Assembly: GCA_947458545.1 (NCBI GenBank)
Contig: CANGYH010000008.1
Span: 1-64,000 of the forward strand
From: Cytophagaceae bacterium
GTDB taxonomy: Bacteria; Bacteroidota; Bacteroidia; Cytophagales; Flexibacteraceae
Direction of reading: 5' to 3'
DNA: 64,000 nucleotides
In this document: in pieces, positions 29,652-48,600 of the stretch
Numbering within the stretch: the stretch's first letter is position 1
How the letters are laid out: every line of letters starts with the position of its first letter
The notes under the pieces: model-generated
The model's input: only the letters and a program-made list of their open reading frames with translations
Told to the model about the DNA's origin: nothing
Database searches by the model: none
Translations under genes and position numbers: made by a program

Positions 29652-30044
29652 TTACATCTTAGCCTTGATGGCCGCTGCCAGGCCCTGCATCTCCTCGGGG
29701 GCAAAACTGAGGCGGGGCTTGGTGAAAGTGGCGTCGTCTATGGAGTTGAGCGGCAGCAGGTGCACGTGCGTATGGGGCACCTCTAGCCCGATGACAGCCA
29801 CCCCCACGCGCTTGCAGTCTATGGCCGCACCTACGGCTTTGGCTACCTTTTGGGCAAAGGCCCAAAGCGCAGCATAAGCGGCAGGCTCAAGGTCGAAGAG
29901 GTAGTCAACCTCGGCTTTGGGCACCACCAGCGTATGGCCCTTGGCAACGGGTTGCACGTCCAGAAAGGCAATGTGGTGCTCGTCCTCGGCTACGATATAG
30001 GCCGGAATCTCGCGGGCGACGATGCGGGAGAATATCGAGGGCAT
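29652..30044 (-). CDS. HIT-family nucleotide hydrolase
   Basis: This is a 130-residue histidine-triad protein. The motif HTHVHLLPL puts the triad at H91, H93 and H95, with H95 expected to form the nucleotidyl intermediate. N-terminal IFSRIVAREIPAYIV and GHTLVVPK are typical of the HINT/Hit branch, which cleaves adenosine phosphoramidates or dinucleoside polyphosphates. It lies 14 bases downstream of greA on the same strand, a pairing I recall from other Bacteroidota, so the two are probably one operon. Confidence 0.92.
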   Translation of the reverse strand: MPSIFSRIVAREIPAYIVAEDEHHIAFLDVQPVAKGHTLVVPKAEVDYLFDLEPAAYAALWAFAQKVAKAVGAAIDCKRVGVAVIGLEVPHTHVHLLPLNSIDDATFTKPRLSFAPEEMQGLAAAIKAKM

Positions 30045-30058
30045 AGCGGGGCGCGGGC

Positions 30059-30535
30059 TTAGTCTAGCAAACCAATCTCGAGCACCTCGAGCTCTACCGT
30101 GCCCGCAGGCACCTTAATCTCGACCTTGTCGCCAACGCGCTTGCCCAGCAGGCCCGAGCCAATGGGAGACTTTACGCTGATCTTCTGCGTCTTCAGGTCG
30201 GCCTCTTCTTCGCTTACGAGGCTGTAGGTGATACTGGCGTTGTTCTTGAGGTTTTTGAGCTTAACCTTAGTCATGATAGACACCTTGCTCAGGTCTAGCG
30301 ACGACTCGTCGAGCAGCCGGGCGTTGCCCAGCAGCTCTTCCATTTTGGCAATCTTCATCTCCAGCAAGCCTTGTGCGTCTTTGGCGGCATCGTACTCGGC
30401 ATTTTCAGAGAGGTCTCCCTTGTCGCGGGCTTCGGCAATCTGGCGGGCAATGTCCGCACGGCCCCGGCTTTTGAGTTCGGTCAGTTCTTCTTTGAGTTTG
30501 CGCAGGCCTTCTTCGGTGTAATATGTGACAGCCAT
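30059..30535 (-). CDS. greA: Transcription elongation factor GreA
   Basis: This 158-residue factor restarts backtracked RNA polymerase by stimulating transcript cleavage. The N-terminal coiled coil contains the signature DLSENAEYDAAK, with the acidic tip that reaches into the polymerase channel. The C-terminal FKBP-like domain shows SPIGSGLLGKRVGD. Length and both domains are normal. First gene of a two-gene unit with the HIT protein. Confidence 0.95.
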   Translation of the reverse strand: MAVTYYTEEGLRKLKEELTELKSRGRADIARQIAEARDKGDLSENAEYDAAKDAQGLLEMKIAKMEELLGNARLLDESSLDLSKVSIMTKVKLKNLKNNASITYSLVSEEEADLKTQKISVKSPIGSGLLGKRVGDKVEIKVPAGTVELEVLEIGLLD

Positions 30536-30620: not shown

Positions 30621-30660
30621 AAAAAAGTGAACGACCCCCTAGTGGCAGGGGGCCGTTCAC
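30621..30660 (-). terminator. Terminator of PorV/PorQ-like gene
   Basis: GTGAACG-CCCCCT (30627-30640) pairs with AGGGGG-CGTTCAC (30647-30660) with one unpaired base on each side. The A-run at 30620-30626 is a T-run on the minus strand. It ends the receptor/surface-protein/PorV-like unit. Confidence 0.85.
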
Positions 30661-30694: not shown

Positions 30695-31822
30695 TTAGAA
30701 CTTCACTACAAAGCCCAGGCCGTGCGTCCCAGAGAAGGGATTGGTGGGGCGGTAGCTGTAGTCTATACCGACGGTGATGTCAGATTTCTTCTTGGCAGGG
30801 GCGCCATCGGCGGAGGCACCGTCGCTCAGAGAGGTACCGGTGATCTCGGCAGCACCCTTGGCACCAAACATCTCTGCGAGGGGCAGCTCTATGGTGGCAC
30901 CGGCGGCCAGGCCTGTGTACACGTCTGTACGGGCAGCAGCCTCGGGCACAGAGAACGTCTGGCGGAACATGTACGAAGCCCGCAGCATGAACATCTCGCG
31001 GAAGGCCAGCTCTACCCCGGGGACGAGGTTGTCGTTGGTGTACGAGTTAGATGTAAAGTTGAAGGCCGGCGTCAGGCGAAGCTCCTGCTCTTTAAAGTTG
31101 AAGTCGTAGCTGGCACCGATGTTAAGCATGGCGGGCATCTCGAAAGGTGCCACGCGGCTGCCCAGTGTCAGGCCGATCTGGTCGCGCTGGCCACGGAAAG
31201 AGAGTCCCTCGCCGCTGTATTGCAGCTTGGGGCCTACGTTGCGCAAGGCCACGCCGAACTTGAACTCGTTGTTGGGCCCGCTCTGGTACTGTATGCCTGC
31301 ATCAAAAGCTACACCAAACGCCTGCGCGTTTGATATGCCCTGGTAGATGCCCCGCACCAGCAGACCACCTGTGATGCGGCTGCTGAAGGTTTTGGCATAG
31401 CTCAGGCCAAAATTGAAGAACGACGGCGAGAAGGTGTTGTTCGTACCCTCTGGCAGCGCGTAGGTCGTCTGGATAAAGTCTCCCAGCGATAGGCTGGTAA
31501 ACGTCATACCCAGCACGCCCGTGGGGCTCAGCCGCTGGCCAAAACCCAGCGAGAGTATGTTGATGCCCGAGCCAGAAAGGTAGCGCTGGTTGGCGATGAT
31601 CAGGTCTGTGTTCTTCACATAGGCCAAACCTGCGATGTTGAGCGACATAGACTCAATACCGCGGACGGAGCCTGAATTGGCGCCGTTCCAGCCCGTGCTA
31701 CGTGCCCAGGGGTTGATCAGCAGCTCGGTGGCACCGGCCTGGCCCCGCTTGGTATCGTTGCCGGCCGTGGCTACCTGGGCAGCCATACCCAGCACCAAGG
31801 CGATTGCATAGAGTTTTTTCAT
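30695..31822 (-). CDS. PorV/PorQ-family outer-membrane protein
   Basis: This is a 375-residue predicted beta-barrel. A signal peptide (MKKLYAIALVLGMAAQVATA) is followed by GQAGATELLINPWARSTGW and SMSLNIAGLAY, the marks of the UPF0164 / PorV-PorQ family. The protein ends in GFVVKF with a terminal Phe, as usual for outer-membrane barrels. In the T9SS, PorV takes cargo from the translocon and PorQ helps anchor it; which of these, if either, this protein does is not clear. A non-conserved loop near residue 335 is Ala/Asp/Lys-rich. It is the last gene of a three-gene set with a large surface protein and a TonB-dependent receptor. Confidence 0.82.
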   Translation of the reverse strand: MKKLYAIALVLGMAAQVATAGNDTKRGQAGATELLINPWARSTGWNGANSGSVRGIESMSLNIAGLAYVKNTDLIIANQRYLSGSGINILSLGFGQRLSPTGVLGMTFTSLSLGDFIQTTYALPEGTNNTFSPSFFNFGLSYAKTFSSRITGGLLVRGIYQGISNAQAFGVAFDAGIQYQSGPNNEFKFGVALRNVGPKLQYSGEGLSFRGQRDQIGLTLGSRVAPFEMPAMLNIGASYDFNFKEQELRLTPAFNFTSNSYTNDNLVPGVELAFREMFMLRASYMFRQTFSVPEAAARTDVYTGLAAGATIELPLAEMFGAKGAAEITGTSLSDGASADGAPAKKKSDITVGIDYSYRPTNPFSGTHGLGFVVKF

Positions 31823-31835
31823 GTATGAGAGCTTT

Positions 31836-31883
31836 CGGGTAGTGGCCTGGCGCCAGCGTAGAGTTGTAGCGCCAGGCTACCCG
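31836..31883 (-). promoter_or_regulatory. Intra-operon hairpin before PorV-like gene
   Basis: CGGGTA (31836-31841) plus GCCTGGCGC (31845-31853) pair with GCGCCAGGC (31869-31877) plus TACCCG (31878-31883), giving a 15-pair stem with a three-base bulge. It lies between the 1423-residue protein gene and the PorV-like gene and has no T-run. It might attenuate transcription or set an mRNA processing end. Confidence 0.55.
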
Positions 31884-31910
31884 GTTAGAATAGGTGCAGT
31901 TGGTAACGAC

Positions 31911-34900
31911 TTAGTTAGATACAGCGTCCAGATCGGTAGGGCGCATGATACCGAACCATTTCACGGTTTTCTCGCCCAGGTTGTAGGCGTTGATGTGAAT
32001 GATGTAAACACCCGAGGCAATCGGCAGCCCTGTCTGAGTTTTCAAATCCCAATCCAAGAAGGTAGTGCTGTTGATGTCCAGGTTACGCTGCGTCTCGGCC
32101 TCGATACCGGCCTCCGTAGAGCGGTCTACCGTAAAGCGACGCACCAGCGAGCCCGACAGGTTGAAGATCGAAATCTGGCAACGGGTGGGTAGGTTGGTAA
32201 GGCGCACGCGGTTGTCTATCTGGCTCTGCTCGTAGGTGCTGTAGGCATAGTACGGGTTGGGCACTACGCGAATCAGATCTAGGGCACGCTGAGCCACGGC
32301 CGTTACGTTGGTAGAAGCCTCCAACCCTTTGGTAGAGAAGCCGTAGGTAGGCGTACCGTTGGGGCCGCCAGAGTCTGGGTAGGCACGGTAGGCTTTGTCT
32401 ATCCGCAGGCGTACACGTGTCTGCGTACCCAAGAAGGGCGCAGCCTGTGGCACGGCTACGCGGCCGATCCACATCATGTTACGCCATACCAGGCGCGTTA
32501 GCAGGTTGTTTTTGAAGGTCGTCTCGCCTGGGATGCGTGCCTGCACGCTGTCTAGCAGTCGCTCGGCATTACGGCCCTGGTCGTACTGGGTAGACATGAC
32601 ATAGACGTAGTTCTTACCTCCAAACGGTCCGCCCGTCGGGCGCCATTGCAGGTCTGCCCCGCCGGTTGGGTCAGAGATACGGCTCTCTAAGAAAGCCATG
32701 TTCAGGCGTACGCCACGGTCTAGGTCTATGGCATAGCCGGGGAACCAGCTCATGCCACGGCTAGGGATGACACTATCGCGCTGGAAGGTGCTGCTGGCAC
32801 CCGTGGGCGCAAACGTCTTGCCGACGGAGGGAATGCGCGACTTCCGGAACAAGCCTACCCGGATGGGTTGCCCGTTGGCATCCAGCTCCTCGCCGCGGAT
32901 AACGAATACACGCGTCCACTTGCTGGTGTCAGGCGTCATCACGATGTCCACGTTTTGCAGGCGCTGCATCATACCATAGATGGTAGAGTCCACAAACTTG
33001 ACGGGTGCCCCGCCAGATTGATCATTCCCTGCTGTGTAGGCATCCACGTATGGGGTAGGGGCAAAGCTGCCGCTCAGGATGCGGCGCAGAGCACCGGCAA
33101 CCTCTACGCGGTTGGGGCGATCCAGGCCGTTGGCGTAGAAGATTGAGGCCGCATCGCGGCGCCACCAGTTGGCCGGAGACTCCTCGTCGAAGGGAGGTGC
33201 CTCGATCGGCACTACCCAGCGGCGGGTAGCATTGGCCGATACGATGCTGCCCTCTTGCAGGCCGTTGGCAGGGTTCACAAAGATTCGGGTACCTGGGTCT
33301 ATCACATTGCGGATGGATACCAGCAGTCCGTACTTGGTAGAAAGCTGCTCGTTCAAGAAACTAACCGGGCGGCCGGCGCTATCTACGGCATTGCCGGTAG
33401 AGTCGTACAAGCGCCAGAAGTCGTAAGGCTGGTACTCGTCGCAGGTTACCAGGTCGCCGGGGTTGCTCTCTTTAAAGAATGGCCGTGGTAAGAAGTCGTA
33501 CTCAGAGAACTGGTTACGGCTGGGGTCAATCCGGTTTACGAGTTGGGTAAAGCGGCCACCACGGCGGTTGTTCAGCACCTCTACCACCAGGTCAACCAGG
33601 TTCGGGTCAGCCCCGACGCGGCGGCGCTTGCCTACTACGATGCCCACGCCTTCGTCTTGCGGGGCGGTCAGGTCTCGCACGAGGGCAGGATCCGTCAGCG
33701 TCGGCCAGGGGGCAGAGATGATGCGGTCTCCGATAGAGAACTTGTTAAAGTCTCCACGATAGCTGACGCGGCTGTAGAGGCGGATCTGCAGGTCTGCGCT
33801 CTTAACGTTCTTGGGGTTGTAAATGCGCACCTGCACCGGCGACTTGCCGTTGGTGTAGCGGATGGCCTGCTTGGCACCGTCGCGCAGGATGTCTGCCTCG
33901 TCTTGCGTGTTGAGGCTGTCGAAGTTGGTGCCGCCGTTGCCGACGCCCTGCAGGCGGGTAACATCCAGCGACTGGTTGAAGGATGCGTTCAGCACCGTGC
34001 CACCGTTAGATGGGTCCACCTTGTGGGGGATGGCCGTGAACTTGTTACGGTTCTGGCGGCCAAGGATGTACTTGATCTGCTGAGACGAGTCGCCGTTGTA
34101 ACCATAGGCCAGCACCGTGAAGTAGTACCGGTTGAAGTTGACCAGCTTGCCACCACCGGGCGAGAAAGCGTCTTCTTTGATAGAGAAGGTACGGGTCAGG
34201 CCACGGTCGGCCCCGCGTACTTTAACGCGCTGCTGGAAGGCGCCCACCGTCTCGTCAAACTCCTCGTTGATGATGGTACCTACGCCATTGCGCACGTCAG
34301 ACGACACATTGGCCAACAGGCGGGCCTTGTCGGGGTTGTCCAGATCGCCGAAGCCCACAGAGGCATCAAAAAGCTGGTACACCAGGTAACCTTCAAAACG
34401 GTAGAAGGGGTCGCGCAGGCGGCTGTTGAAGTCCCGCTCCTGGTAGGTCTCTGTGTTAACAAGGTTTCCGGTAGCGTCGCGGCGCTCGTGGGGGATAACC
34501 GTAAAGAGCAGCTCACGATCCAGCTCGGTGATTTCAACATCTGGCGCGTCGGGGCCGTCCAGGATTTTGAAGTCGTTGTCGAACAGTTTCTGGGCAGCGT
34601 CGTCGGCAGCCAGCAGCTTGTTTAAGGAGCCCAAAGCACCACCTGTTGAGGCACGTGCCCAAACGACACCTACCGTAAGCTCGTTAACTGCACCGGGGCG
34701 CAGGGTAAACGGGCCTGCGTTGGTCAACATCCGGCGGTCGCCAGGAGGGTTGCCGGCAGATACTTCGTCCCAAAGCAGGGTACGCTGCGGGTTCTGGCAG
34801 GTACCACCGATAGACCACCCGGGCGAAATGTCAGACTCGCCGGGGAAGATGAAGTTGGACTTCGGCGCGGGGCCGATGCCCGGTACGTTGGTGCCGATGG

Positions 34901-36182
34901 CCTGGGTACCGTCGCGCAGGTCGTAGGTCATCACGGCGCTGTTGCGCCAGATAGACCGCTGGAAGTTGAAATAGTCTTGCGCTACGGTTGGGTTACCGTT
35001 GATGGAGCTGCTCGTGTTGTTGTAGTACACGAAGTTGGAGGCGATGATCAACTCACCGGGCTCGTCAACCACGCAGTTTTTGTTGTTGTCTATACCGTCG
35101 CCTGGGTCGGCCACGGGGCCTTTAAAGAAGTCCACAGCCACCGTAGGCGGGTTAGCGCCGTAGCCGTTCACGCCGTCGTCAAAGTCGTCGCCGTTGTAGC
35201 AGATGGCCAGACCACGCGGAACGTTGAAAGCCACATAGTCGTCAGAGGCAAAGCCAAGGTCTGGGTCAGACCAGTGGCCGAAGTAGCAGTCGTCCAGGAT
35301 GGTGGTGCCTTTGTTTACCAGCTTGTTGCGGTAGAACGTCATGTCGTTCACGTAGTCGGCCGTGGCATAGCCAAAAGCCTCAGACTGAATCTCCATGCCG
35401 ATGGGGCGGTTGTTGAGCGAGGTGCCAGAGAACACCTTACGGCCACCGACGTCGTTCATCACCCAGAACAGCACCTGGTCTGCACCAGAGCTTTGGCCCT
35501 CGCGGCCCGGCAGACGGGGCGAGTCTCCGGCCAGCGGATCATAGATGCCGTCGCCGTCGCGGTCAATAAAGCGAGCCGTCTCAAAGCTCATGTCAATACC
35601 CTCGAAGCCGCGCTCTGCAGGCAGGTAAGGGTTGCCCTTGCCAGGCCAGCGCAGGATGCTTTGGGGCACATCGTCTTTGGTACGCACCAGGCCAGAGGCA
35701 AAGCGGGCCTCAAAATCGAGTACGTCTTGGCGGTTTACCTTAAACATCTTGTCCCACTGGCGGCAGCGCGTGGGCGAGGTGATGCTCGTCAGGTTATCGA
35801 TAGGCCCAGGCCAGAAAGACTGGTTGTTGGTAGATCGGTAGGTCTGGGCCATTACGTAGATGTTGTTGGTACCTTGCTCGCGGCCTGATACCCATATGGA
35901 GGCCGCAAACATGGAGTGGCGCTTTATGGCGCCGGGGTCGTCCACCTTAGGGATCTCGTAGCGGGGGCAGCATGAGAGCTCCCACCACATATCGCCACCG
36001 TTGTGGATCATGGCCCGCACGTTGTTGATGTCCAGGTCTGCCCGGGCGCTGGGCGTCAGGCAGCCGTAGTTGGTAGGCTCTGGCAAGCCGCCGTTGGGGT
36101 CAAATCCGGGAGGCGCTCCGGCCTGTGCCGACAGGGCCCAGCCAAGAAGAGCGACGATCGATAAAAAGCGTGTCTTTCTCAT
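31911..36182 (-). CDS. Large secreted surface protein with T9SS-type C-terminus
   Basis: This is a 1423-residue protein. The ATG at 36182 is chosen because it begins a signal peptide (MRKTRFLSIVALLGWALSAQA). The first third contains short acidic loops, such as RDGDGIYDP near residue 207 and DPGDGIDNNKN near 365, that resemble calcium-binding loops of thrombospondin-3 type. No enzyme domain is recognised. The last 120 residues (from VVPNPYYAYSTYEQ to SGVYIIHINAYN and KWFGIMRP) look like a T9SS sorting domain, of a variant with PNPYYA in place of YPNP. It is the middle gene between a TonB-dependent receptor and a PorV-like protein, with gaps of 31 and 88 bases, so the three products probably work together at the outer membrane. 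Confidence 0.8.
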   Translation of the reverse strand: MRKTRFLSIVALLGWALSAQAGAPPGFDPNGGLPEPTNYGCLTPSARADLDINNVRAMIHNGGDMWWELSCCPRYEIPKVDDPGAIKRHSMFAASIWVSGREQGTNNIYVMAQTYRSTNNQSFWPGPIDNLTSITSPTRCRQWDKMFKVNRQDVLDFEARFASGLVRTKDDVPQSILRWPGKGNPYLPAERGFEGIDMSFETARFIDRDGDGIYDPLAGDSPRLPGREGQSSGADQVLFWVMNDVGGRKVFSGTSLNNRPIGMEIQSEAFGYATADYVNDMTFYRNKLVNKGTTILDDCYFGHWSDPDLGFASDDYVAFNVPRGLAICYNGDDFDDGVNGYGANPPTVAVDFFKGPVADPGDGIDNNKNCVVDEPGELIIASNFVYYNNTSSSINGNPTVAQDYFNFQRSIWRNSAVMTYDLRDGTQAIGTNVPGIGPAPKSNFIFPGESDISPGWSIGGTCQNPQRTLLWDEVSAGNPPGDRRMLTNAGPFTLRPGAVNELTVGVVWARASTGGALGSLNKLLAADDAAQKLFDNDFKILDGPDAPDVEITELDRELLFTVIPHERRDATGNLVNTETYQERDFNSRLRDPFYRFEGYLVYQLFDASVGFGDLDNPDKARLLANVSSDVRNGVGTIINEEFDETVGAFQQRVKVRGADRGLTRTFSIKEDAFSPGGGKLVNFNRYYFTVLAYGYNGDSSQQIKYILGRQNRNKFTAIPHKVDPSNGGTVLNASFNQSLDVTRLQGVGNGGTNFDSLNTQDEADILRDGAKQAIRYTNGKSPVQVRIYNPKNVKSADLQIRLYSRVSYRGDFNKFSIGDRIISAPWPTLTDPALVRDLTAPQDEGVGIVVGKRRRVGADPNLVDLVVEVLNNRRGGRFTQLVNRIDPSRNQFSEYDFLPRPFFKESNPGDLVTCDEYQPYDFWRLYDSTGNAVDSAGRPVSFLNEQLSTKYGLLVSIRNVIDPGTRIFVNPANGLQEGSIVSANATRRWVVPIEAPPFDEESPANWWRRDAASIFYANGLDRPNRVEVAGALRRILSGSFAPTPYVDAYTAGNDQSGGAPVKFVDSTIYGMMQRLQNVDIVMTPDTSKWTRVFVIRGEELDANGQPIRVGLFRKSRIPSVGKTFAPTGASSTFQRDSVIPSRGMSWFPGYAIDLDRGVRLNMAFLESRISDPTGGADLQWRPTGGPFGGKNYVYVMSTQYDQGRNAERLLDSVQARIPGETTFKNNLLTRLVWRNMMWIGRVAVPQAAPFLGTQTRVRLRIDKAYRAYPDSGGPNGTPTYGFSTKGLEASTNVTAVAQRALDLIRVVPNPYYAYSTYEQSQIDNRVRLTNLPTRCQISIFNLSGSLVRRFTVDRSTEAGIEAETQRNLDINSTTFLDWDLKTQTGLPIASGVYIIHINAYNLGEKTVKWFGIMRPTDLDAVSN

Positions 36183-36213
36183 AGGTATGTTTAGAGCTGG
36201 CGTCAACAAAGGA

Positions 36214-39200
36214 TTAGAAGCTGTAAGAAACACCGATGCGGAAACGGCGGGGCAGGGTTACAAAATCTGGGTTCAGCATCAACTGCTGGTAGTAGAAAAT
36301 GTAGGTCTCTTGCGAGAAGGGGGCGATGTTACCCTGAGACAGTTGGTTCTGGCCAAACTGGCTGACCAAGAAACCGTTGTCGTCTGGGCGGCCGGTGCGG
36401 CGGTACACTTCTAATGTGTTGACCTGATTAAAGAGGTTCTGCACATAGAAGTAGACATTGAGCGATGACTCTTCGCTTGAAGTCAGCCCCTTGAAATAGA
36501 AAGTTTTGTCGATACGCAGGCCGGTACGGTTGTTCCAGGGCAGGCGCGCACCGTTGATGCTGCCTTGTATCTGGCTGCGGCCACCCCAGAAAGAACCATC
36601 CACCGTGTATGGGTTGCCCGAGCCGAGGAAGGTGGTGGTGTTGATACCCGCATTGGCAAAGGGGTAGAACCCGCCGATGGAGGGGCCCTCTTTGTCGCCG
36701 GTGCGGTAGTCCAGGTTCAGCTTGATGGCGTGGCGCTGATCCCAGTTTTGTGGGGTGATGTTACGCAGGTTGGGCGTGTTGGTGTTGAGCAGCGCCGTGG
36801 CAAAGTCTGAGGCAGAGCCCTCGGTAAACTGCAGCGTGTAGCTGGCGTTCATGCCGAAGCCCAGGCCTCCGCGCTTGCGGTAGTCGAAGCTGGCCGTCAT
36901 GCCCTTCATCACACCAAAGTCGATGTTGTCGTTGGTGCGGAAGCTGGGGTTGGGGTAACCGCCGATGATGTTGACCACCTGGATCAGGTCTTTAACCTCT
37001 GAGTAGAAGGCAGAAAGCTTCAGGGCCGTGTTCTGGCTCAGGCGCTGTTGGAAACCGAGCTGATAGTCGATCTTCCGCTGAGGGCGCAGGTTCGGGTTGG
37101 TCAAGAAGGGGTTGTTGTTGTTGTCGCGCAGGTTGTAGTACTGCAGCGGGCTGCCGAAGTTGCTGCCCGTATTGGGGCCAGAGCGGCCGTTGCCCGTTAC
37201 AGATACGGGGCGCTGCGTGAGCACGTCGTAGTGGGCAAAGAAGAGGGCGTCTTCAGATATCGGGAACGAGAACGCCAGACGTGGCATTACGTTGGTCTGC
37301 GGGCGGAAGTCCGTAAAGGCATCCAGGGTGATGCCGCGGTCGCGCTGCAGGTTGCGCTCAAACGTGTTGAGGCGGGTAATGTCGTAGAGTGGGAAGAAGT
37401 TGCCGTTCTGCGCTATCTGCACGGGGTTGCTTATCTCGCCTCCGTTGGCATCGTAGAAGGTACGACCGTTGCGGAAGCCAACTACTCGGAACTCGTTTTC
37501 GTTCGTGCCCGGTACCAGCTCGTCGGCCGACTTGTCCAGGTACACGGCATAGTCAGAGCCAATGTTACCGGGCGTGCGGAAGGCCTCGCCCGCTGCATTG
37601 CGGAAACGGCCCAGGTTGGCCTCGCCGACGGTAGTCAGGCGCGTCAGGCTGTAGTTGTCGCGCAGCACCTGCTGGTTGATGTCGAACTGATCTACCCGCA
37701 CACCGGCACGGATGATGAGGTCGTTGATCTCGAACTTGTCTTCGATGTAACCCGCCAGGTAAATGGGGCGGAACGCATCGATGGGCCGGTTGATCGTATC
37801 GGTAAAGAAGTCGTTAAAGCTGGGGCGTGCCGTGTAGCGATCACCGTATGCATTCACGCCGCGGTAGCTGGCCACCGGGTTTTGCCCGTCGCCGAAGAGC
37901 TCGCCTGGGGTAAAGTTGCGCAGGCTCAGCAGGCTGGGGTCAAGCTCCTCGGGGTTGATGAGGCGGTTGTTGGGCAGGCCCAGGATCTGACGGATGCGGC
38001 GGTCGTAGGCAGACTGGTTGACGATGTTGCCCTCGCCGTTGGTCAGCACGGCCAGGTCTGGGTCTATGGTGATGACCCGGTTGCCGTTAGGCAGGTAGCT
38101 CGTCGTAAAGCTGGAGTTAGACGTGCCGCGCAGTGGGCTGTTTACAATATGGTTGTTGAGCAGGCGGCGAGCGGCACCCCAAGGAGTACGCAGGCTATTG
38201 CTCTCGTCGCCGGCACCGTACAGGCGCTGCACGCGCTGCTCGTACTCAAAACCGAGCTTGATGCTGTGCTTGCCGATGTCACCAGCCACCTGGCCGGTAA
38301 AGCGGTACTGCTCGTCAGAGTTCCAGCCATAGTTCTGCAACAACTGGCCAGGGTAAGAGAACGGAGAGACCGTCTGGGTGGGGTCGTCAATGTTCAGGCC
38401 GGGGAAGAAGTTGTAGGCCCAGTCTACGTTGTTGCGGGCATCACCGTTGATGAGGCCCCCAAAGGCCGGCAGCAATTGGTAAATGTTGTTGGGGCCAAAG
38501 GGCGCTCCGCGGAACTCGTCCAGAATCTGCAGGTTCCGGTTAACGGCAGGGCCAGCACCGCTGAAGGGCTCAAAATCATAGCCGCCCAGCAAGCCCTGGC
38601 TAATGGTATTGCCCACGATGCGGTAGCGGGTGCTGGGGTCAGACAGCAGCGGGATGCTGTCCACAATCGTAGAGGTACCTGGCTGGTAAACGTAGAAGAA
38701 AGGTGCAGCACCCGGGCCCAGCAGCGAGTCTGCCCCGAAGGCCACACGGCGCTCGCGGAACTTGCCAAAGTAGTTGTACAGCTCCACATTCTCGCGGAAG
38801 CGGCTGTCCTCGCTGATGCCAAAGTTGCGGCTGTAGTCAGCCTGTACCTGGTAGTAGAAGTTTTTAAGCCCGAAGCCGCTTTCTGTATTGCCCAGGTTGG
38901 GGAACGTCTGGCGGAAGCGGATAAAGCCGTTGTAGTCGTGCCGGCTGAAGATGGGGTTGAGCCCGTAGTTAAACAGGTTGAAGTTGCTGCTCTGCTGGCG
39001 GTGGCCGTAGTTGTAGTTGCCACCTACGCTGATGATGATATTCTCCTTGGGCTGATAGTCCAGCGTGAGGTTAAACTGGTTCTGCCCGGCAGCGGCATTG
39101 GGGCGGGCTTGCACACGCTCAAAATCGCCGGGCTGTAGGAAGTCTGCCGCAGAGCGATAAACGCTGGATCCGTCGGCCAGGGGCACCAGGCGGAAGGGCC

Positions 39201-40137
39201 GCTGCTCAAGCTCGCGGAGCACCTCTGGCTTGGCTACGAGATAGTTATAGGCAGAGGGGCTGGGGTCGCGGTTGTACTCGTAGGTATAGGCGGCGTACAC
39301 ACCCAGGATGGTCCGCGTAGAGGTCTTGTTGGTGGTGGGGTCCGTGGTGGTTTTGCGCAACAGCGGGCCGCTGAAGTTGCCGCCTACCAGATTGTAGTTC
39401 CACCTGTCGAAGATGCGGCTCGTCTCGTACTGGATACCGGCACGGTAGTTGCTGGCTGCACCCTTGGTTGTTACAGATATGATACCACCGAGCGCATCTC
39501 CATACTGGGCGGGCACGCCGCCCGTAATCACAGAGATTTCAGCGATCGTCTCTACGGGAGGATACTGCGTACCGAACTGGCGCACACCGTTCACAAACAC
39601 GATGTTGTCTCCGCCGCGGTTGCCGCGCACGTTCAGCGCGCCGCCGTCGTCGTTAGAGAAAACGCCGGCCGTGGTGGTCAGCACGGTGTTGATGTTACGG
39701 CTCGGCAGCTTTTCGATGTCCTTACCCGTCAGCTTGGTACCCGTAGAGGTGTTGTCCTTGTCTATCAAAGGCACGCGGTACGTCTCTACCACTACCTCAT
39801 TGAGCTCTTTGGCCTCGTTGGGCAGCGAGAGGTTCAGGCGTGTGGTCGTCTCGAAGTTGATGCGTACCTCATTGACCACGATCTTACGGAAGCCCAGGGC
39901 GCTGGCCTCTACCTGGTATGTACCCGGTGTAAGCGGCGATACGACGTACTGGCCGTTCTCGTCGGCCACGCCGCCCCCTTTGAGCTGCCCGCCCGAGAGC
40001 ACCCGGACGGCGGCAAAGGGTACGGGCTCCTTGGTATCTCGGTCTAACACCGTGCCCGAAAGCTTGCCGTTCTGCGCCAGCACAGCCAGGGGGAGGGCCA
40101 AGAATAGATAAAGTAGAACAGGTAGCTTTTTAATCAT
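36214..40137 (-). CDS. TonB-dependent receptor with carboxypeptidase-like domain
   Basis: This is a 1307-residue outer-membrane protein. The ATG at 40137 gives a signal peptide (MIKKLPVLLYLFLALPLAVLAQ). Residues 23-100 form a carboxypeptidase-regulatory-like beta domain (LSGTVLDRDTKEPVPFAAV). A plug domain follows (DIEKLPSRNINTVLTTTAGV, NVRGNRGGDNIVFVNGV, ALGGIISVTTKG), then a long barrel ending FRIGVSYSF. Such receptors take up substrates with TonB energy. There is no adjacent SusD partner, so it is not a standard SusCD pair. It leads the three-gene unit with a large surface protein and a PorV-like protein. The ligand is unknown. Confidence 0.9.
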   Translation of the reverse strand: MIKKLPVLLYLFLALPLAVLAQNGKLSGTVLDRDTKEPVPFAAVRVLSGGQLKGGGVADENGQYVVSPLTPGTYQVEASALGFRKIVVNEVRINFETTTRLNLSLPNEAKELNEVVVETYRVPLIDKDNTSTGTKLTGKDIEKLPSRNINTVLTTTAGVFSNDDGGALNVRGNRGGDNIVFVNGVRQFGTQYPPVETIAEISVITGGVPAQYGDALGGIISVTTKGAASNYRAGIQYETSRIFDRWNYNLVGGNFSGPLLRKTTTDPTTNKTSTRTILGVYAAYTYEYNRDPSPSAYNYLVAKPEVLRELEQRPFRLVPLADGSSVYRSAADFLQPGDFERVQARPNAAAGQNQFNLTLDYQPKENIIISVGGNYNYGHRQQSSNFNLFNYGLNPIFSRHDYNGFIRFRQTFPNLGNTESGFGLKNFYYQVQADYSRNFGISEDSRFRENVELYNYFGKFRERRVAFGADSLLGPGAAPFFYVYQPGTSTIVDSIPLLSDPSTRYRIVGNTISQGLLGGYDFEPFSGAGPAVNRNLQILDEFRGAPFGPNNIYQLLPAFGGLINGDARNNVDWAYNFFPGLNIDDPTQTVSPFSYPGQLLQNYGWNSDEQYRFTGQVAGDIGKHSIKLGFEYEQRVQRLYGAGDESNSLRTPWGAARRLLNNHIVNSPLRGTSNSSFTTSYLPNGNRVITIDPDLAVLTNGEGNIVNQSAYDRRIRQILGLPNNRLINPEELDPSLLSLRNFTPGELFGDGQNPVASYRGVNAYGDRYTARPSFNDFFTDTINRPIDAFRPIYLAGYIEDKFEINDLIIRAGVRVDQFDINQQVLRDNYSLTRLTTVGEANLGRFRNAAGEAFRTPGNIGSDYAVYLDKSADELVPGTNENEFRVVGFRNGRTFYDANGGEISNPVQIAQNGNFFPLYDITRLNTFERNLQRDRGITLDAFTDFRPQTNVMPRLAFSFPISEDALFFAHYDVLTQRPVSVTGNGRSGPNTGSNFGSPLQYYNLRDNNNNPFLTNPNLRPQRKIDYQLGFQQRLSQNTALKLSAFYSEVKDLIQVVNIIGGYPNPSFRTNDNIDFGVMKGMTASFDYRKRGGLGFGMNASYTLQFTEGSASDFATALLNTNTPNLRNITPQNWDQRHAIKLNLDYRTGDKEGPSIGGFYPFANAGINTTTFLGSGNPYTVDGSFWGGRSQIQGSINGARLPWNNRTGLRIDKTFYFKGLTSSEESSLNVYFYVQNLFNQVNTLEVYRRTGRPDDNGFLVSQFGQNQLSQGNIAPFSQETYIFYYQQLMLNPDFVTLPRRFRIGVSYSF

Positions 40138-40185
40138 CCGTAAGTTTTCCGCAACTGTGTGTCTCTGCGATGGGAAAAAGGCCCG

Positions 40186-40219
40186 TAAATATAGGTTTGC
40201 CCAAGGGGCAACCGCAAAA
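40186..40219 (-). promoter_or_regulatory. Candidate promoter of receptor/PorV-like unit
   Basis: On the minus strand TTTTG (40219-40215) is followed by 21 bases and TATATTTA (40193-40186), one mismatch from TAnnTTTG. It is 48 bases before the receptor ATG. Confidence 0.45.
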
Positions 40220-40420
40220 CCAAAAAGCCTAATTGGCGTATAACCGCCAAAATTTCTTTGGCACCCCAGACACAAGGGCCAACAATCTTTGGAAAACACC
40301 TAACCATCTAAGCGTAAGCCTGTTACTCTTGCGCCCCTAGGCCAATATGCAATAGATGAATAGCGGCGTTATGCACCACACGCAAGCCATCGGACTGATT
40401 GTCAAGCCCTAGAGGTTGCC

Positions 40421-41359
40421 CTACCCTTGTTGCACCAGTTGCAAGATTTTTTCTAGCAACACCTCCGAAATCCGCCTGTAAGATTCTACCGTCCACCCCG
40501 CCACATGCGGAGAGAAGATGACCTTTTGCGACTCCTGCAAGCTTTTAAGCACCTCGTTTTGGTGCGCTGTGGTGCGGGTAAAGTCTTCTTCTTCCAGCAC
40601 ATCCAGCGCGGCGCCGCGCACCTTGCCCTCTTGCAAGGCAAGGTGCAGGCCTTGCAGGGGCAGCACCTCGCCCCTAGAGGTGTTTATCACCCAGACCGGC
40701 CTTACGAAGCGCTGGTAGAAGTCATGATTCACCATGTGGCGGGTTTCTTCCGTCAGTGGCACATGCAGAGATAGAATATCAGCCACTGCCCAGATTTCTT
40801 CCAGACTCGAGCGCTCTGCTTTGCCATCAGGCCAGTCCGTCAGGTACTTGTCATAGGCCAGCACGCGGCAGCCAAACGCCGCCAGCCGCCTGGCAAAAGC
40901 CCGGCCCATATTGCCGTAGCCGATCAGGCCGACGGTTTTGCCTAGCAGCTCGTGGCCGCGGTTGGCCTCGCGCTGCCAGAGGCCTTGGCGCACCTCGGCA
41001 TCGGCTTGCGGAATGTGGTTCAGCAGGGCCAGCAGCAGCCCCATACAGTGCTCGGCCACGGCATCGCGGTTGCCTTCGGGCGCATTCAGCAGGGTTATGC
41101 CACGCCGGGCAGCCTCGACGGTGTCTATGTTGTCGGTGCCCGCCCCAGCCCTGGCTACCCAGCGCAAGGCAGTGGCCGCCGCAAAAAAAGCAGAATCAAG
41201 CTTCAGTTTGCTGCGCACTACAATGCCCGCATAAGCCCCTATGTTGGCCAGTACCTCGGCCCGGCCTGCCTGGGGGGCATAGGTATAGCCAATGCCAGCC
41301 GCATCCAGCCCTTGCATCAGGGCGGGGTGCATCTCATCTACGATATAGCATCTGGGCAT
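40421..41359 (-). CDS. D-isomer-specific 2-hydroxyacid dehydrogenase
   Basis: This 312-residue NAD-dependent oxidoreductase resembles 3-phosphoglycerate dehydrogenase (SerA) and its relatives. The Rossmann motif is GLIGYGNMG (144-152). The catalytic set is R229 (INTSRGEV), E256 (ALDVLEEE) and H285 (FSPHVAGWT). The ATG at 41359 (MPRCYIVDEMHP) begins the catalytic domain cleanly, 19 bases after rsmA. There is no C-terminal ACT domain, so it is the short type; SerA, glyoxylate reductase and related activities all remain possible. Confidence 0.88.
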   Translation of the reverse strand: MPRCYIVDEMHPALMQGLDAAGIGYTYAPQAGRAEVLANIGAYAGIVVRSKLKLDSAFFAAATALRWVARAGAGTDNIDTVEAARRGITLLNAPEGNRDAVAEHCMGLLLALLNHIPQADAEVRQGLWQREANRGHELLGKTVGLIGYGNMGRAFARRLAAFGCRVLAYDKYLTDWPDGKAERSSLEEIWAVADILSLHVPLTEETRHMVNHDFYQRFVRPVWVINTSRGEVLPLQGLHLALQEGKVRGAALDVLEEEDFTRTTAHQNEVLKSLQESQKVIFSPHVAGWTVESYRRISEVLLEKILQLVQQG

Positions 41360-41378
41360 GGGCAGGCAGTCTGGCGGG

Positions 41379-42215
41379 CTAGAGCAGGTCAGTATCCTCA
41401 GGCGCGATAGGCGGCAGTGCTGCCCCGGCCGTGCGGCGGGCATACAAGGCCACGGCCAAGTCTATAAACGCGGCCACAGACAATTGTTCTGCCCGGCTGT
41501 CCAAATGGGGCACGCCGTCGTCTAGGGCAATGCCCAGGCTGCCGAGGGCGTTGCGCAGCATCTTGCGCCGCTGGTTGAAGGCCGCCTTCACCACGTGCTG
41601 GAAGAACGCATGCGGCACCGGCAGATCTGCCGACTGCCGGCCATTGCGCGTTAGCACAATAACGCCGCTATCTACCTTCGGCGGCGGCAGAAAAGAGCCC
41701 GGCTTTACTGTAAAGGCATATTTAATGTCGTACCAAAGCTGCAGCAGCACAGAGAGGATACCATACTCTTTGTTGCCTGGCCCGCTGGCAATGCGCCGGG
41801 CCACCTCGCGCTGCACCATGCACACCACCGTCGGTATCCGGTCGTAGTCGGCCAACACCTTAAAGAAGATCTGGCTGCTGATGTTGTAGGGAAAGTTGCC
41901 TGCCACCACCACCGGGCCATTGCCCGTTTGGGCCAGATCGGCCTGCAAAAAGTCAGCTAACTGTACATGGTAAGGCTCGGCCGCATATCGCTGCTGCAGC
42001 ACGGCTACAGACTCGGCGTCCACGTCCATCAAATAGAGGCCGCGGTAGCCTGCGGTGGGCAGGTGCTCCGTCAGGGCACCCTCGCCGGGGCCCACCTCAA
42101 CCAAGGCAGCGCCGTTGCCCTCAGCAGGCACCAGCGCGCCAATACGTGCGCAGATGCTCTTGTCTGTCAGAAAATGCTGCCCCAGCCATTTCTTAGCCTT
42201 GATGTGTTTCGCCAT
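41379..42215 (-). CDS. rsmA: 16S rRNA dimethyladenosine transferase
   Basis: This 278-residue enzyme (KsgA) dimethylates two adjacent adenines near the 3' end of 16S rRNA with S-adenosylmethionine. It shows KKWLGQHFLTD at the start, the SAM-binding VEVGPGEGALTE (40-50) and catalytic NFPY at 107-110. The C-terminal domain includes FNQRRKMLRNAL. A normal length and motif order. The 2-hydroxyacid dehydrogenase gene follows 19 bases downstream and is probably co-transcribed. Confidence 0.95.
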   Translation of the reverse strand: MAKHIKAKKWLGQHFLTDKSICARIGALVPAEGNGAALVEVGPGEGALTEHLPTAGYRGLYLMDVDAESVAVLQQRYAAEPYHVQLADFLQADLAQTGNGPVVVAGNFPYNISSQIFFKVLADYDRIPTVVCMVQREVARRIASGPGNKEYGILSVLLQLWYDIKYAFTVKPGSFLPPPKVDSGVIVLTRNGRQSADLPVPHAFFQHVVKAAFNQRRKMLRNALGSLGIALDDGVPHLDSRAEQLSVAAFIDLAVALYARRTAGAALPPIAPEDTDLL

Positions 42216-45615: not shown

Positions 45616-48600
45616 TTATTCTACAACAAGTTTCTGGGTGAGTGTCTGGCCGGCAGAAACCATGCGCACGGTGTAAACTCCGGCAGCAAGTTGGGTTTGC
45701 ACGGGCAGCTCGGCGCGGCCCTGGCTGTTTACGTTGAAGCTGCTGTTGTACACCATGCGGCCGTCGGCAGCTATTACCGTTACTTGCGCCTGGCTACCCT
45801 TGAGGCCACTGGCCGTCAGGTAGAAGGCACCCGCCGTAGGGTTGGGGTAAACAGACAGGTTAGAGCTTACGCCGGCAGCAACAGACGTTACAGAGGCAGG
45901 GCCCGTCACCAGCTCGAAGCGGCCACGCTCGGTAGCGGGGTTGCTCGTTACGGCAAAGGTGTACACAGGGCGCTGGCTAAGGTCTGTCAGCGTACCCAAG
46001 AAGTTATCGCGCAGGTACACTACCAGGCCTGCATCCAGGCTCTCGATGTTGCGGAAGCTCAAGGTGAAGGTACCCGTACCCGTTACCGAAGTACGAACCG
46101 GAATCACCTGCGTAGCCGTCAGCTCAGGCATAAAGTTGGCCGCCAGGCTCAGGCCCGTGGCAGGCACGGTGCTCAGGTTTACGCCGTTGCCCGTCAGCTT
46201 GTAAGCGTCCAGGGCATTGTCGTAACCGAGCGTAGCATCAGAGCGGAAGCCGATCATGGCATTGTCTGTTGCGCCGTTGCCGGTCAGGGTCATGTAGATG
46301 CGGTTGGCCTCAGAGCCCGTACGCAGGAAGCTGCCGCGGTTGGCTCCGCTGGCCACCGTCTTGTGCGACTCCAGGAAGCTTACAGACTGTGCTGCAGTAA
46401 CCTTCGCAAAGAAGGCCTGGCCGCTGTAGATAAACCGGCCGCCGCCGTTCAGCGCCGTTTGCGTGGTGCTGTTGTAGGTAGCGTACTGGCCCAGGGCTGG
46501 GTTCCAGATATAGACGGTAGAAGACAGCGATGCAGCGTTGTTGGTCGCACGGAAGGCGTTCCAGTCAATCTCGCTGGGGTATGGGTTGGCAATCAGGTTC
46601 CAGCCGCCGCCGTTCCAGCCGCCAGCAGGCGTAAAGGTCAGGCTGCGCGATACCGTGCCTACGAAAGGAGCACCCGTCACGCTCAGGCGCTGGCCGGTTT
46701 GCGTGTAGAGGCGGTAGCCGGTGATGGCGTTGGCAGGGTTGATGGCGTCGCTGGTGGCGTTCACCGTTTTCCAACCGGCAACCTCTGTCAGGGCACCGTT
46801 CACCACCAGGCGGGTGGTGTCGTTCTCTGTGTAGCCAAACAGGTTGGCGTTGTTGCGCGGTGTCAGGCGGATGTTAGCGCCACCCAGGTCGGCAAAGGTC
46901 TTGCCTTGTACCGGAGCGGTGATGAAGTGCCAGCCCGTAGAAGGCATGGCGCGCTCAAAGACGATGTCGCCCACCGTCTGACCTACGCCCAGCGCGGCCA
47001 GGCGAGCCGTGCGGCCACCTACGCTGAGCAGTTGCAGGCCAGCGGCCAGGTTGCCGTTTACCAGTTGCATGTGGCGGCGCACCTGGAACTTACCACCAGC
47101 GGCGATGGTAACCAGGGCAGGCGCCGTAGAGTTCTGAATGATGATGGCAGAGTCAACCGACAGCGTACCCGTTGCGCCGATGTTGATAGGCGTGGTAAAG
47201 CTGGCCGTTGTGTTGTTGTTGAAGCCGTACAAGATCTGGCCGGCGTTCAGCGTACCGTTTACGGTGATGGCACCGCCACGGTCTCCGCTGCCTGCACCAT
47301 CTACACCATCCATAGACACTGAGCTGTTGGCACCCAGGTTGGTAACCACAGCACCAGCGGCCACCGTAATGTTGAGGCGGCTGTTGATGATGTTGTTGAA
47401 GATGGTCGTCCCGTTGAAGAGCATGCGGACGTTGCCGGTAATCGTCAGGTTAGACGTAGCAACAGAAGGAGCAGAGGTGCTGTTCTTGCGGATACGGGCC
47501 AGGGTCAGGTTGCCGTTCAGCGTAAGGTTGGCACCTTCTGCGTTGATACCGATGAAAGAGGTATCGGCTGGGGCGAAGCTACCGTTGTTGGTAATGGCCG
47601 AGTACAGGTTGATGTACTGAGGCGTGTTGGCCGTCGTGCCCTGTGCAGACCAGATACCACCGCTGTTGACGGTGAGCGTGCGCAGGTTCAGGTTGCTGGC
47701 TGTCATCCTTACGTGGTGTCCGCTCTGGACAACCACATTGACGTTAGAGCTAAAGCCACCCAAAGCCGTTGCCGTCTGAGGTGTGCCGGTTGGCGTCAGT
47801 GCCCAGATGGCATCTGTAACCCGGCCGCTGGCCTGGCTGTAATACACCGTGTTCTGCGCCTGGGCGCTTGTCTCTACACCGGCATTGTAAACGCCGTTGT
47901 ACTTCACAAAAACTTTTACAAAGTAGGTCTGGCCTACCGTCAGCCCGTTCAGCGTAAAGTTGTCGCCGGTGCCTTGGTAAACCACGCGGCCCGTGGTGCC
48001 AATGAGGCTGCCGCCGCCGGTGCCGTAGTTGGCGTTGGCCGTGTAGGTGGTGGCAGGGTTAGGCGTGGCGGTGATAGGTGCCACGTCTGCAACTACCAGC
48101 ACGTCGGTAAAGCAGGTGGGGTTGTCCCAGGTTACGGGCAAAAACTGCGCCCCCGTCTGGATGGCCAGGTTTGTAACGTTGCTAGGCGTGCCTGCCACAA
48201 CGCTGAAAGTGTTGCTGGCAGCCGTGGTGCCGGCAAGGTTGGCCGAGAAGAACTCCAGGTTCACCAGCGGGAAGTCTTGCGTGTTGATCAGGCGGCCAAG
48301 GGCCACACAGCCGTCAATTTTGGCCGTCAGGAAGAGGTAGCTCGTGCCGACAGGAATGTTCTGCGCCGCATCGAAAACCAACGTCTCAGGAGCAGACGCG
48401 CTAGGTACCGTAGCAAATACCACATCGCCAGCGTCGAGGGTCGCATCTGCTGAGTAGCGCAGCTCCCACTCTTCAATGTCAGAGCCTACGTAGTTGCCGC
48501 CCGTGGTGATGGTAAAGCGAGACAGCACGGCAGAGCTACCGGCCACATCAAGCTGCATGCGCAATACACCGTTCAGCGAGCCAGCCGCCACCGTAGAGCC

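Follow-up and report, generated by a model that had tools for sequence, protein, structure and literature searches.

A conserved receptor, large secreted protein and PorV-family barrel gene unit in Bacteroidota as a candidate outer-membrane import complex

In BtuB:BtuG a TonB-dependent receptor works with a surface capture partner. The SusCD import complex is likewise described as a TonB receptor with a surface-exposed capture partner (PMC6987092). PorU and PorZ are products of the type IX secretion system (T9SS) that keep an uncleaved C-terminal domain (CTD) and are held at the cell surface by PorV and PorQ (PMC5562754, PMC11285876, PMC10202324). In the SprB:SprF and PG1035:PorP pairs, the gene for a type B cargo often adjoins that for a FadL-family shuttle which carries or holds the cargo and sets its final place (PMC12618676, PMC9143113). 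Examined here is a row of three genes at positions 30695-40137 of a 64,000-nucleotide stretch (the window) from a Cytophagaceae bacterium (assembly GCA_947458545.1, contig CANGYH010000008.1), encoding a TonB-dependent receptor, a 1423-residue secreted protein (BIG) and a PorV/PorQ-family barrel. The initial annotation held that no described system has this exact make-up. In agreement with this, no study devoted to a receptor-cargo-PorV trio came up in searches of the open-access literature; against it, the genes tonB-hypA-hypB of the Rhodothermus marinus alginate locus are annotated as receptor, T9SS type A protein and PorV/PorQ protein in the order of the trio, without comment in the accessible text (PMC9530828). 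The halves of the arrangement are thus known, a CTD protein held by a barrel and a receptor with a capture partner, and their union in an ancient operon with a tail of its own is undescribed in the open-access literature searched. There is about an even chance that the trio codes for a single import complex of the outer membrane, in which BIG would be exported by the T9SS, anchored on the barrel and used as the capture partner of the receptor. The three genes are as follows.

36214-40137, minus strand: TonB-dependent receptor gene, 1307 aa, open reading frame intact
31911-36182, minus strand: gene for the large secreted protein BIG, 1423 aa, open reading frame intact
30695-31822, minus strand: PorV/PorQ-family barrel gene, 375 aa, open reading frame intact

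The genes lie head to tail with intergenic gaps of 31 and 88 bp. Three sets of loci were used to follow the arrangement. The named set comprises the best 80 loci of at least 581 relatives found with a 17-row profile and contains 84 BIG hits; the wider-phylum set comprises 40 loci from 40 genomes picked among those positive with a narrow profile, 33 outside the class and 7 of the same class; the relatives set contains 25 hits, two genes being counted twice as the loci L050 and L051 overlap. Four named loci (L060, L061, L063 and L065) come from genomes also in the relatives set. Purpose-made profiles (E <= 1e-5, distance limit 700 bases) served to label neighbours as receptor or PorV-like. A receptor gene 5' and a PorV-like gene 3' were present in 65 of the 72 named BIG hits readable on both sides, the remainder of the set being seven hits with neither neighbour and 12 cut off on one side by the end of the contig or locus. 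The wider-phylum set, with 42 BIG hits, gave the trio in 36 of 39 readable cases (three with neither neighbour, two at a contig end and one unreadable on one side). The relatives gave it in 10 of 17, and five of the seven misses were extra copies in genomes G018 and G020; the order was shared by stretches from G001, G003, G004, G005, G006, G007, G010, G016, G018 and G020. Median gaps across loci were 26 and 28 bp. The reading frames in the window are intact and the order recurs across the phylum, so the row first seen there is real, is not due to chance and is far more widespread than one stretch could show; co-occurrence of the three families beyond chance is strongly borne out.

Locus L206 carries two trios in tandem. 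Genome G018 has four extra BIG copies in a row without a receptor or barrel gene (L050, L051), the C-terminal tail being closely kept in two and degenerate in two, and G020 has a second copy (L053) that likewise lacks both partner genes. In F. johnsoniae three orphan type B cargos share one barrel and, by analogy, the extra BIG copies may also share one.

The receptor satisfies the usual definition of a TonB-dependent receptor (Pfam Plug, 44.3 bits against a cut-off of 23.9) and consists of a signal peptide, recognised by eye, a carboxypeptidase-regulatory-like domain (CarboxypepD_reg, above its Pfam cut-off), a plug and a barrel. Like SusCD and BtuBG, the locus has a TonB receptor with a surface-protein gene alongside. 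Unlike them, the partner is not SusD and has, by eye, a signal peptide but no lipoprotein signal, the receptor has no match to the SusC/RagA model TIGR04056 at E <= 1, and the third gene encodes a PorV-family barrel. BIG itself has no match in Pfam at E <= 1, and the only three SusD places in the genome (PF07980) are all on contigs other than that of the trio. The receptor therefore lacks a SusD partner, as had been noted at the outset, and membership of the trio in the SusCD systems is excluded by the absence of a SusC/RagA match in the receptor and of any Pfam family in BIG.

Assignment of the third gene product to the PorV/PorQ family held up: it scores 108.6 bits against a cut-off of 90 with the NCBIfam model PorV_fam (NF033709), and 14 of 14 members of the trio barrel family match this model at E <= 0.001. 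The next highest score was with the PorQ equivalog (NF033711), 70.8 against a cut-off of 220, and the PorV equivalog (NF033710) gave 43.9 against 250. The genome has a separate PorU-PorV pair (locus L039) and a separate PorQ (L037), so the trio barrel is an extra one. In a tree, 34 trio barrels split from the PorV and PorQ of the same genome and from a further PorV-family barrel at locus L036 (branch support 91/94), though these three outside rows are long branches of unsure placement. Among the trio barrels, those of Bacteroidia (93/91) separate from those of the other classes (81/82), which is the split to be expected under old vertical inheritance. The cut-offs, the separate genomic copies and the tree exclude the trio barrel as the PorV or PorQ orthologue. 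The gene arrangement resembles the SprF/PorP type B pairs in placing a cargo gene beside its own barrel gene. It differs in that the CTD is of type A/PorZ-like kind, in the added receptor and apparently in the barrel family: the barrel does score above the cut-off of the PorP/SprF model (PF11751, 27.7 over 22.3), though far less strongly than with PorV_fam. Elsewhere the 3.2 Mb genome has nine PorP/SprF-family genes besides the trio barrel, and 84 T9SS tails over the curated cut-off.

The trio also resembles PorZ:PorQ and PorU:PorV, in which a CTD surface protein goes with a PorV/PorQ-family barrel, and the CTD of BIG is nearest to those of PorZ and PorU. Two features of the BIG C-terminus carry this comparison.

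31959-32306, minus strand: T9SS CTD of BIG, residues 1293-1408, closest to PorZ and PorU, with an invariant Lys1408
31914-31958, minus strand: 15-residue C-terminal tail after Lys1408, family consensus K-W-F-G-x-x-R-P-x-D-L-D/N-x-F

BIG scored 13.5 bits with the T9SS type A model TIGR04183, below its curated cut-off of 23, and had a better weak match to the PorZ C-terminus. The T9SS-like end first attributed to the protein is thus correct, as a PorZ/PorU-like CTD, but is not a curated hit. At E <= 0.1, 15 of 17 family members matched PorZ, 12 matched TIGR04183 and five matched PorU; the type B tail model was not among the listed matches of the BIG family. A search of solved structures by sequence gave weak matches of the C-terminal BIG profile to PorU and PorZ. 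AlphaFold models were made of residues 30-800 (pTM, the predicted template modelling score, 0.86) and 705-1423 (pTM 0.83), with alignments of 69 sequences each. In the second model, residues 1293-1414 take the T9SS CTD fold, with PorZ matched at Z 9.7 (90 residues, root-mean-square deviation (rmsd) 2.5) and PorU at Z 8.5 (94 residues, rmsd 3.4). Foldseek with the C-terminal part placed PorZ first (E 3.4e-5) and also matched the translocon-bound RemZ CTD (8gl8_D, probability 1.00, E 0.04). Type A CTDs carry a lysine near their end (PMC10994853), which in the BIG family is the invariant Lys1408. With the predicted CTD fold, the near-terminal lysine and sprA in the genome, BIG counts as a T9SS cargo in the wide sense.

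The tail follows the pattern K-[WF]-x-[GA]-x-x-R-P-x-[DE]-...-[FY] in 68 of 72 named loci and has exactly 13 residues after the lysine in 70 of 72. Outside the class other letters are used and the extension is retained, with F or Y at 33 of 34 listed ends. As a control, the best 30 of 90 T9SS tails of the same genome end 0-4 residues past the domain model and 0-7 residues past the last Lys or Arg; the measures are not identical, as BIG has 15 residues after Lys1408 but nine after its last Arg. In P. gingivalis the C-terminus is extended by three residues in PorU and by one in PorZ (PMC11285876). Being conserved and longer than other T9SS ends, the tail of BIG is a good candidate for a docking signal. 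The trio therefore differs from PorZ:PorQ and PorU:PorV in its longer tail, in the TonB receptor gene in the same run, and in that the similarity of BIG to PorZ and PorU was found in the CTD only; a sortase or anionic lipopolysaccharide (A-LPS) role, as for those proteins, is not known for BIG.

These data also bear on the possibility that BIG is an ordinary T9SS cargo, which the barrel would only shuttle, with PorU cleaving the CTD, release or linkage to lipopolysaccharide following, and the receptor being co-regulated without contact. Recognition of every type A CTD has been attributed to PorV (PMC12618676, PMC10994853), and the genome has PorU, PorV and PorQ together with the 84 type A tails that pass the curated cut-off. 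However, the CTD of BIG lies under the type A cut-off and is nearest the uncleaved PorZ/PorU type, cleavage would discard the conserved tail, and the receptor gene is linked to BIG as tightly as the PorV-like gene. An ordinary cargo is thus unlikely.

BIG is accompanied by the receptor as constantly as by the barrel, and the simplest reading is therefore one complex in which BIG presents substrate to the receptor. BIG would be made with a signal peptide and then cross the outer membrane via the T9SS through its CTD. It would be handed to its own PorV-family barrel rather than to PorV and stay bound there uncleaved, with the conserved tail forming part of the docking signal on the barrel. Beside or over the receptor at the cell surface, BIG would capture a substrate, which the receptor would import with TonB energy. 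The complex would work in the manner of SusCD or BtuBG, except that its outer partner, rather than being a lipoprotein, would arrive through the T9SS and be retained by a FadL-type barrel. The initial annotation had offered the barrel as a dedicated shuttle or anchor for the large protein, with the receptor as a partner, a reading that is supported in part; the shuttle or anchor role fits the PorU:PorV, PorZ:PorQ and SprB:SprF pairs (PMC5562754, PMC12618676), and it is by analogy with them that anchoring may be assumed.

The substrate is the least certain element of the proposed complex. Two features lie in the N-terminal part of BIG.

34566-36062, minus strand: N-terminal domain of BIG, residues 41-539, predicted beta-sandwich resembling the N-terminal part of GH94/GH15/GH116-type enzymes
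35049-35105, minus strand: conserved acidic loop with D362, D365 and E377 unchanged across 17 sequences, calcium-type in appearance only

In structural comparison the N-domain model came closest to dextran dextrinase, matching the N-terminal part of that enzyme at Z 18.7 (254 residues, rmsd 3.2); cellodextrin phosphorylase came next at Z 18.4, and GH116 enzymes scored lower, at Z 16-17. The matched region is presumably the super-beta-sandwich domain of those sugar enzymes. Enzymes of the dextran dextrinase, phosphorylase and GH116 type have a helical catalytic barrel, and this seems to be missing from BIG, since few helices are predicted in the rest of the N-terminal half. The modelled fold hints at a carbohydrate, though a shared fold is no proof of sugar binding or of function. 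By sequence, the N-terminal BIG profile gave no match among solved structures. For the middle part (residues ~710-1290) a fold search brought up nothing clear; since most of the rows listed fell on the CTD, it barely probed this part. Of the calcium-type loops first proposed for BIG, the conserved acidic loop is calcium-type in appearance.

Named loci with BIG carry titles from Bacteroidales, Flavobacteriales, Chitinophagales, Cytophagales and others, nearly all metagenome-assembled or uncultured. BIG was detected in 17 of the 59 genomes searched as relatives, own genome included. Across the phylum, a narrow profile (A1) found it in 92 of 392 genomes and a broad profile (A6) in 158 of 392, which cover 98 of 179 genera. 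Many genomes outside the class had it at more than one place; the large profile searches scored two candidates per genome and copy numbers are lower bounds. Clear presence (best E below 1e-60, with 43 weaker A6 positives set aside) amounted to 115 of 392 genomes. The family is rare in the sampled Bacteroidia, the class of the window (7 of 90), and clear in 107 of 287 genomes of other classes. In this sample the family was restricted to genomes with sprA, found in 92 of 92 A1-positive genomes and 319 of 392 overall (hypergeometric p 3e-10, uncorrected for kinship). Outside the class, SusD (PF07980) was found in 33 of 107 BIG-bearing genomes and 83 of 180 others (p 0.013, uncorrected). Within the class SusD was present in all 90 sampled genomes, as inferred from list order, and BIG in seven.

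Several observations weigh against the import complex. Seven of the 72 named BIG copies lack both a receptor and a PorV gene beside them. The co-occurrence with sprA takes no account of kinship, and the anticorrelation of BIG and SusD outside the class is weak. The tail of BIG in the window ends in AVSN and not in F or Y; two named relatives (L060 and L061) also have N as the last residue. The R. marinus alginate-locus protein probably belongs to another subfamily: by annotation and length, hypA (2181 nt) is about half the length of BIG and nearer in size to a 721-aa CTD protein at L036. Searches of the open-access literature turned up no data on how any trio member interacts, where it is localised or what it takes up. 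Finally, the flanks are of housekeeping type. Counting presence anywhere within the fetched locus, greA was found in 63 and HIT in 61 of the 67 named loci (Bacteroidia) with a BIG-PorV pair, and both in 13 of 13 relatives. In other classes 108 of 120 flanking proteins were scanned, at most four per locus, 12 being dropped (L185, L202 and L204, which have no trio), and no sugar-enzyme family was among the 25 listed of the 101 Pfam families found. Housekeeping flanks without sugar enzymes speak against a sugar-specific locus, and a sugar utilisation locus for the BIG family finds no support in the flanks observed. Of 28 loci from other classes, 10 include among the genes nearest to the trio one for a lipoprotein with seven CXXCH haem motifs, recognised by eye, and in eight of these its gene follows the PorV-like gene within ~110 bp on the same strand, so that a redox or metal role fits as well.

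A metal, haem or electron-transfer system, in which the receptor would import a metal complex or BIG would serve redox partners, could draw on these seven-CXXCH genes and on the matches of the receptor profile to the colicin I and enterobactin receptors in the PDB. Against this, those matches fall on plug and regulatory regions that many receptors share, a scan of eight genes of the window around the trio showed no haem protein, and the N-domain fold is of sugar-enzyme type, which leaves such a system quite improbable. An outer-membrane biogenesis or maintenance complex with a housekeeping role, in which a FadL-type barrel with an outer canopy like BamG/BamH in the Bacteroidota β-barrel assembly machinery (BAM) would be joined by a receptor-like barrel, is very doubtful: BamG is a FadL-family barrel carrying extracellular subunits (PMC12611786) and the synteny with greA and HIT is of the housekeeping kind, but BIG was not found in most sampled Bacteroidia (7 of 90 positive), two or more BIG places occur in many genomes elsewhere, and the receptor retains its plug and regulatory domain.

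The seven-CXXCH proteins are ~630-745 aa long (L170:3489-5726, L171, L174, L176, L177, L184, L186, L187, L197 and L198), and the three scanned by name (L170, L174 and L184) contain TPR repeats. A GWxTD-domain protein neighbours the PorV-like gene in L173, L200 and L208.

The genome holds a second cluster (L036:8563-19800; C1:769562-780799) with a TonB receptor of 954 aa, the PorV-family barrel used in the tree (160.8 bits over 90) and the 721-aa CTD protein, together with two proteins whose matches, one to ExeM/NucH nuclease and the other of NHL type, both fall below the cut-off. Taken with the R. marinus alginate trio, this cluster suggests that the receptor-barrel frame is reusable with different capture proteins. 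The wider proposal, for which the balance tips slightly to the negative, is that the import complex represents a further ancient TonB-import design in Bacteroidota, in which a dedicated PorV-family barrel permanently holds a T9SS-exported capture protein by its uncleaved CTD with a docking tail of near-fixed length, the capture protein being swappable (alginate-locus type, L036). In the accessible literature the described barrels for T9SS cargo are of two kinds, PorV for type A and SprF-like barrels for type B; if the proposed import complex is real, the trio family would add a third and would link protein secretion with nutrient import. Outside the class, 74 of the 107 BIG-bearing genomes have no match to PF07980, the one SusD family searched, and their import may therefore depend in part on the trio. 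The proposal would also offer a testable function for many proteins labelled just 'PorV/PorQ family' or 'hypothetical'.

Two further features concern expression of the trio.

30627-30660, minus strand: strong intrinsic terminator, 15 pairs, 9 GC, with a T-run
40186-40218, minus strand: possible promoter TTTG-N21-TATATTTA, read by eye against the Bacteroidota consensus

One promoter and one terminator had been proposed for the row. The terminator is confirmed, starting 34 bp beyond the last stop codon of the trio with greA coming after it. A sigma-70 scan of the minus strand upstream of the receptor gene (40138-40420) found no site, which leaves the candidate read by eye at 40218-40186. Immediately downstream of the trio are greA and a HIT-family gene (29652-30535), and upstream on the same strand is a 2-hydroxyacid dehydrogenase gene (40421-41443). 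Of 35 phylum loci, 14 contained a homologue of the latter, and proteins of phosphoglycerate dehydrogenase type made up 10 of the 108 flanking proteins scanned. Further along the window, 45616-51108 encodes a T9SS protein of 1830 aa whose type A tail is of the ordinary kind (Pfam, 38.8 against a cut-off of 27), in contrast with BIG.

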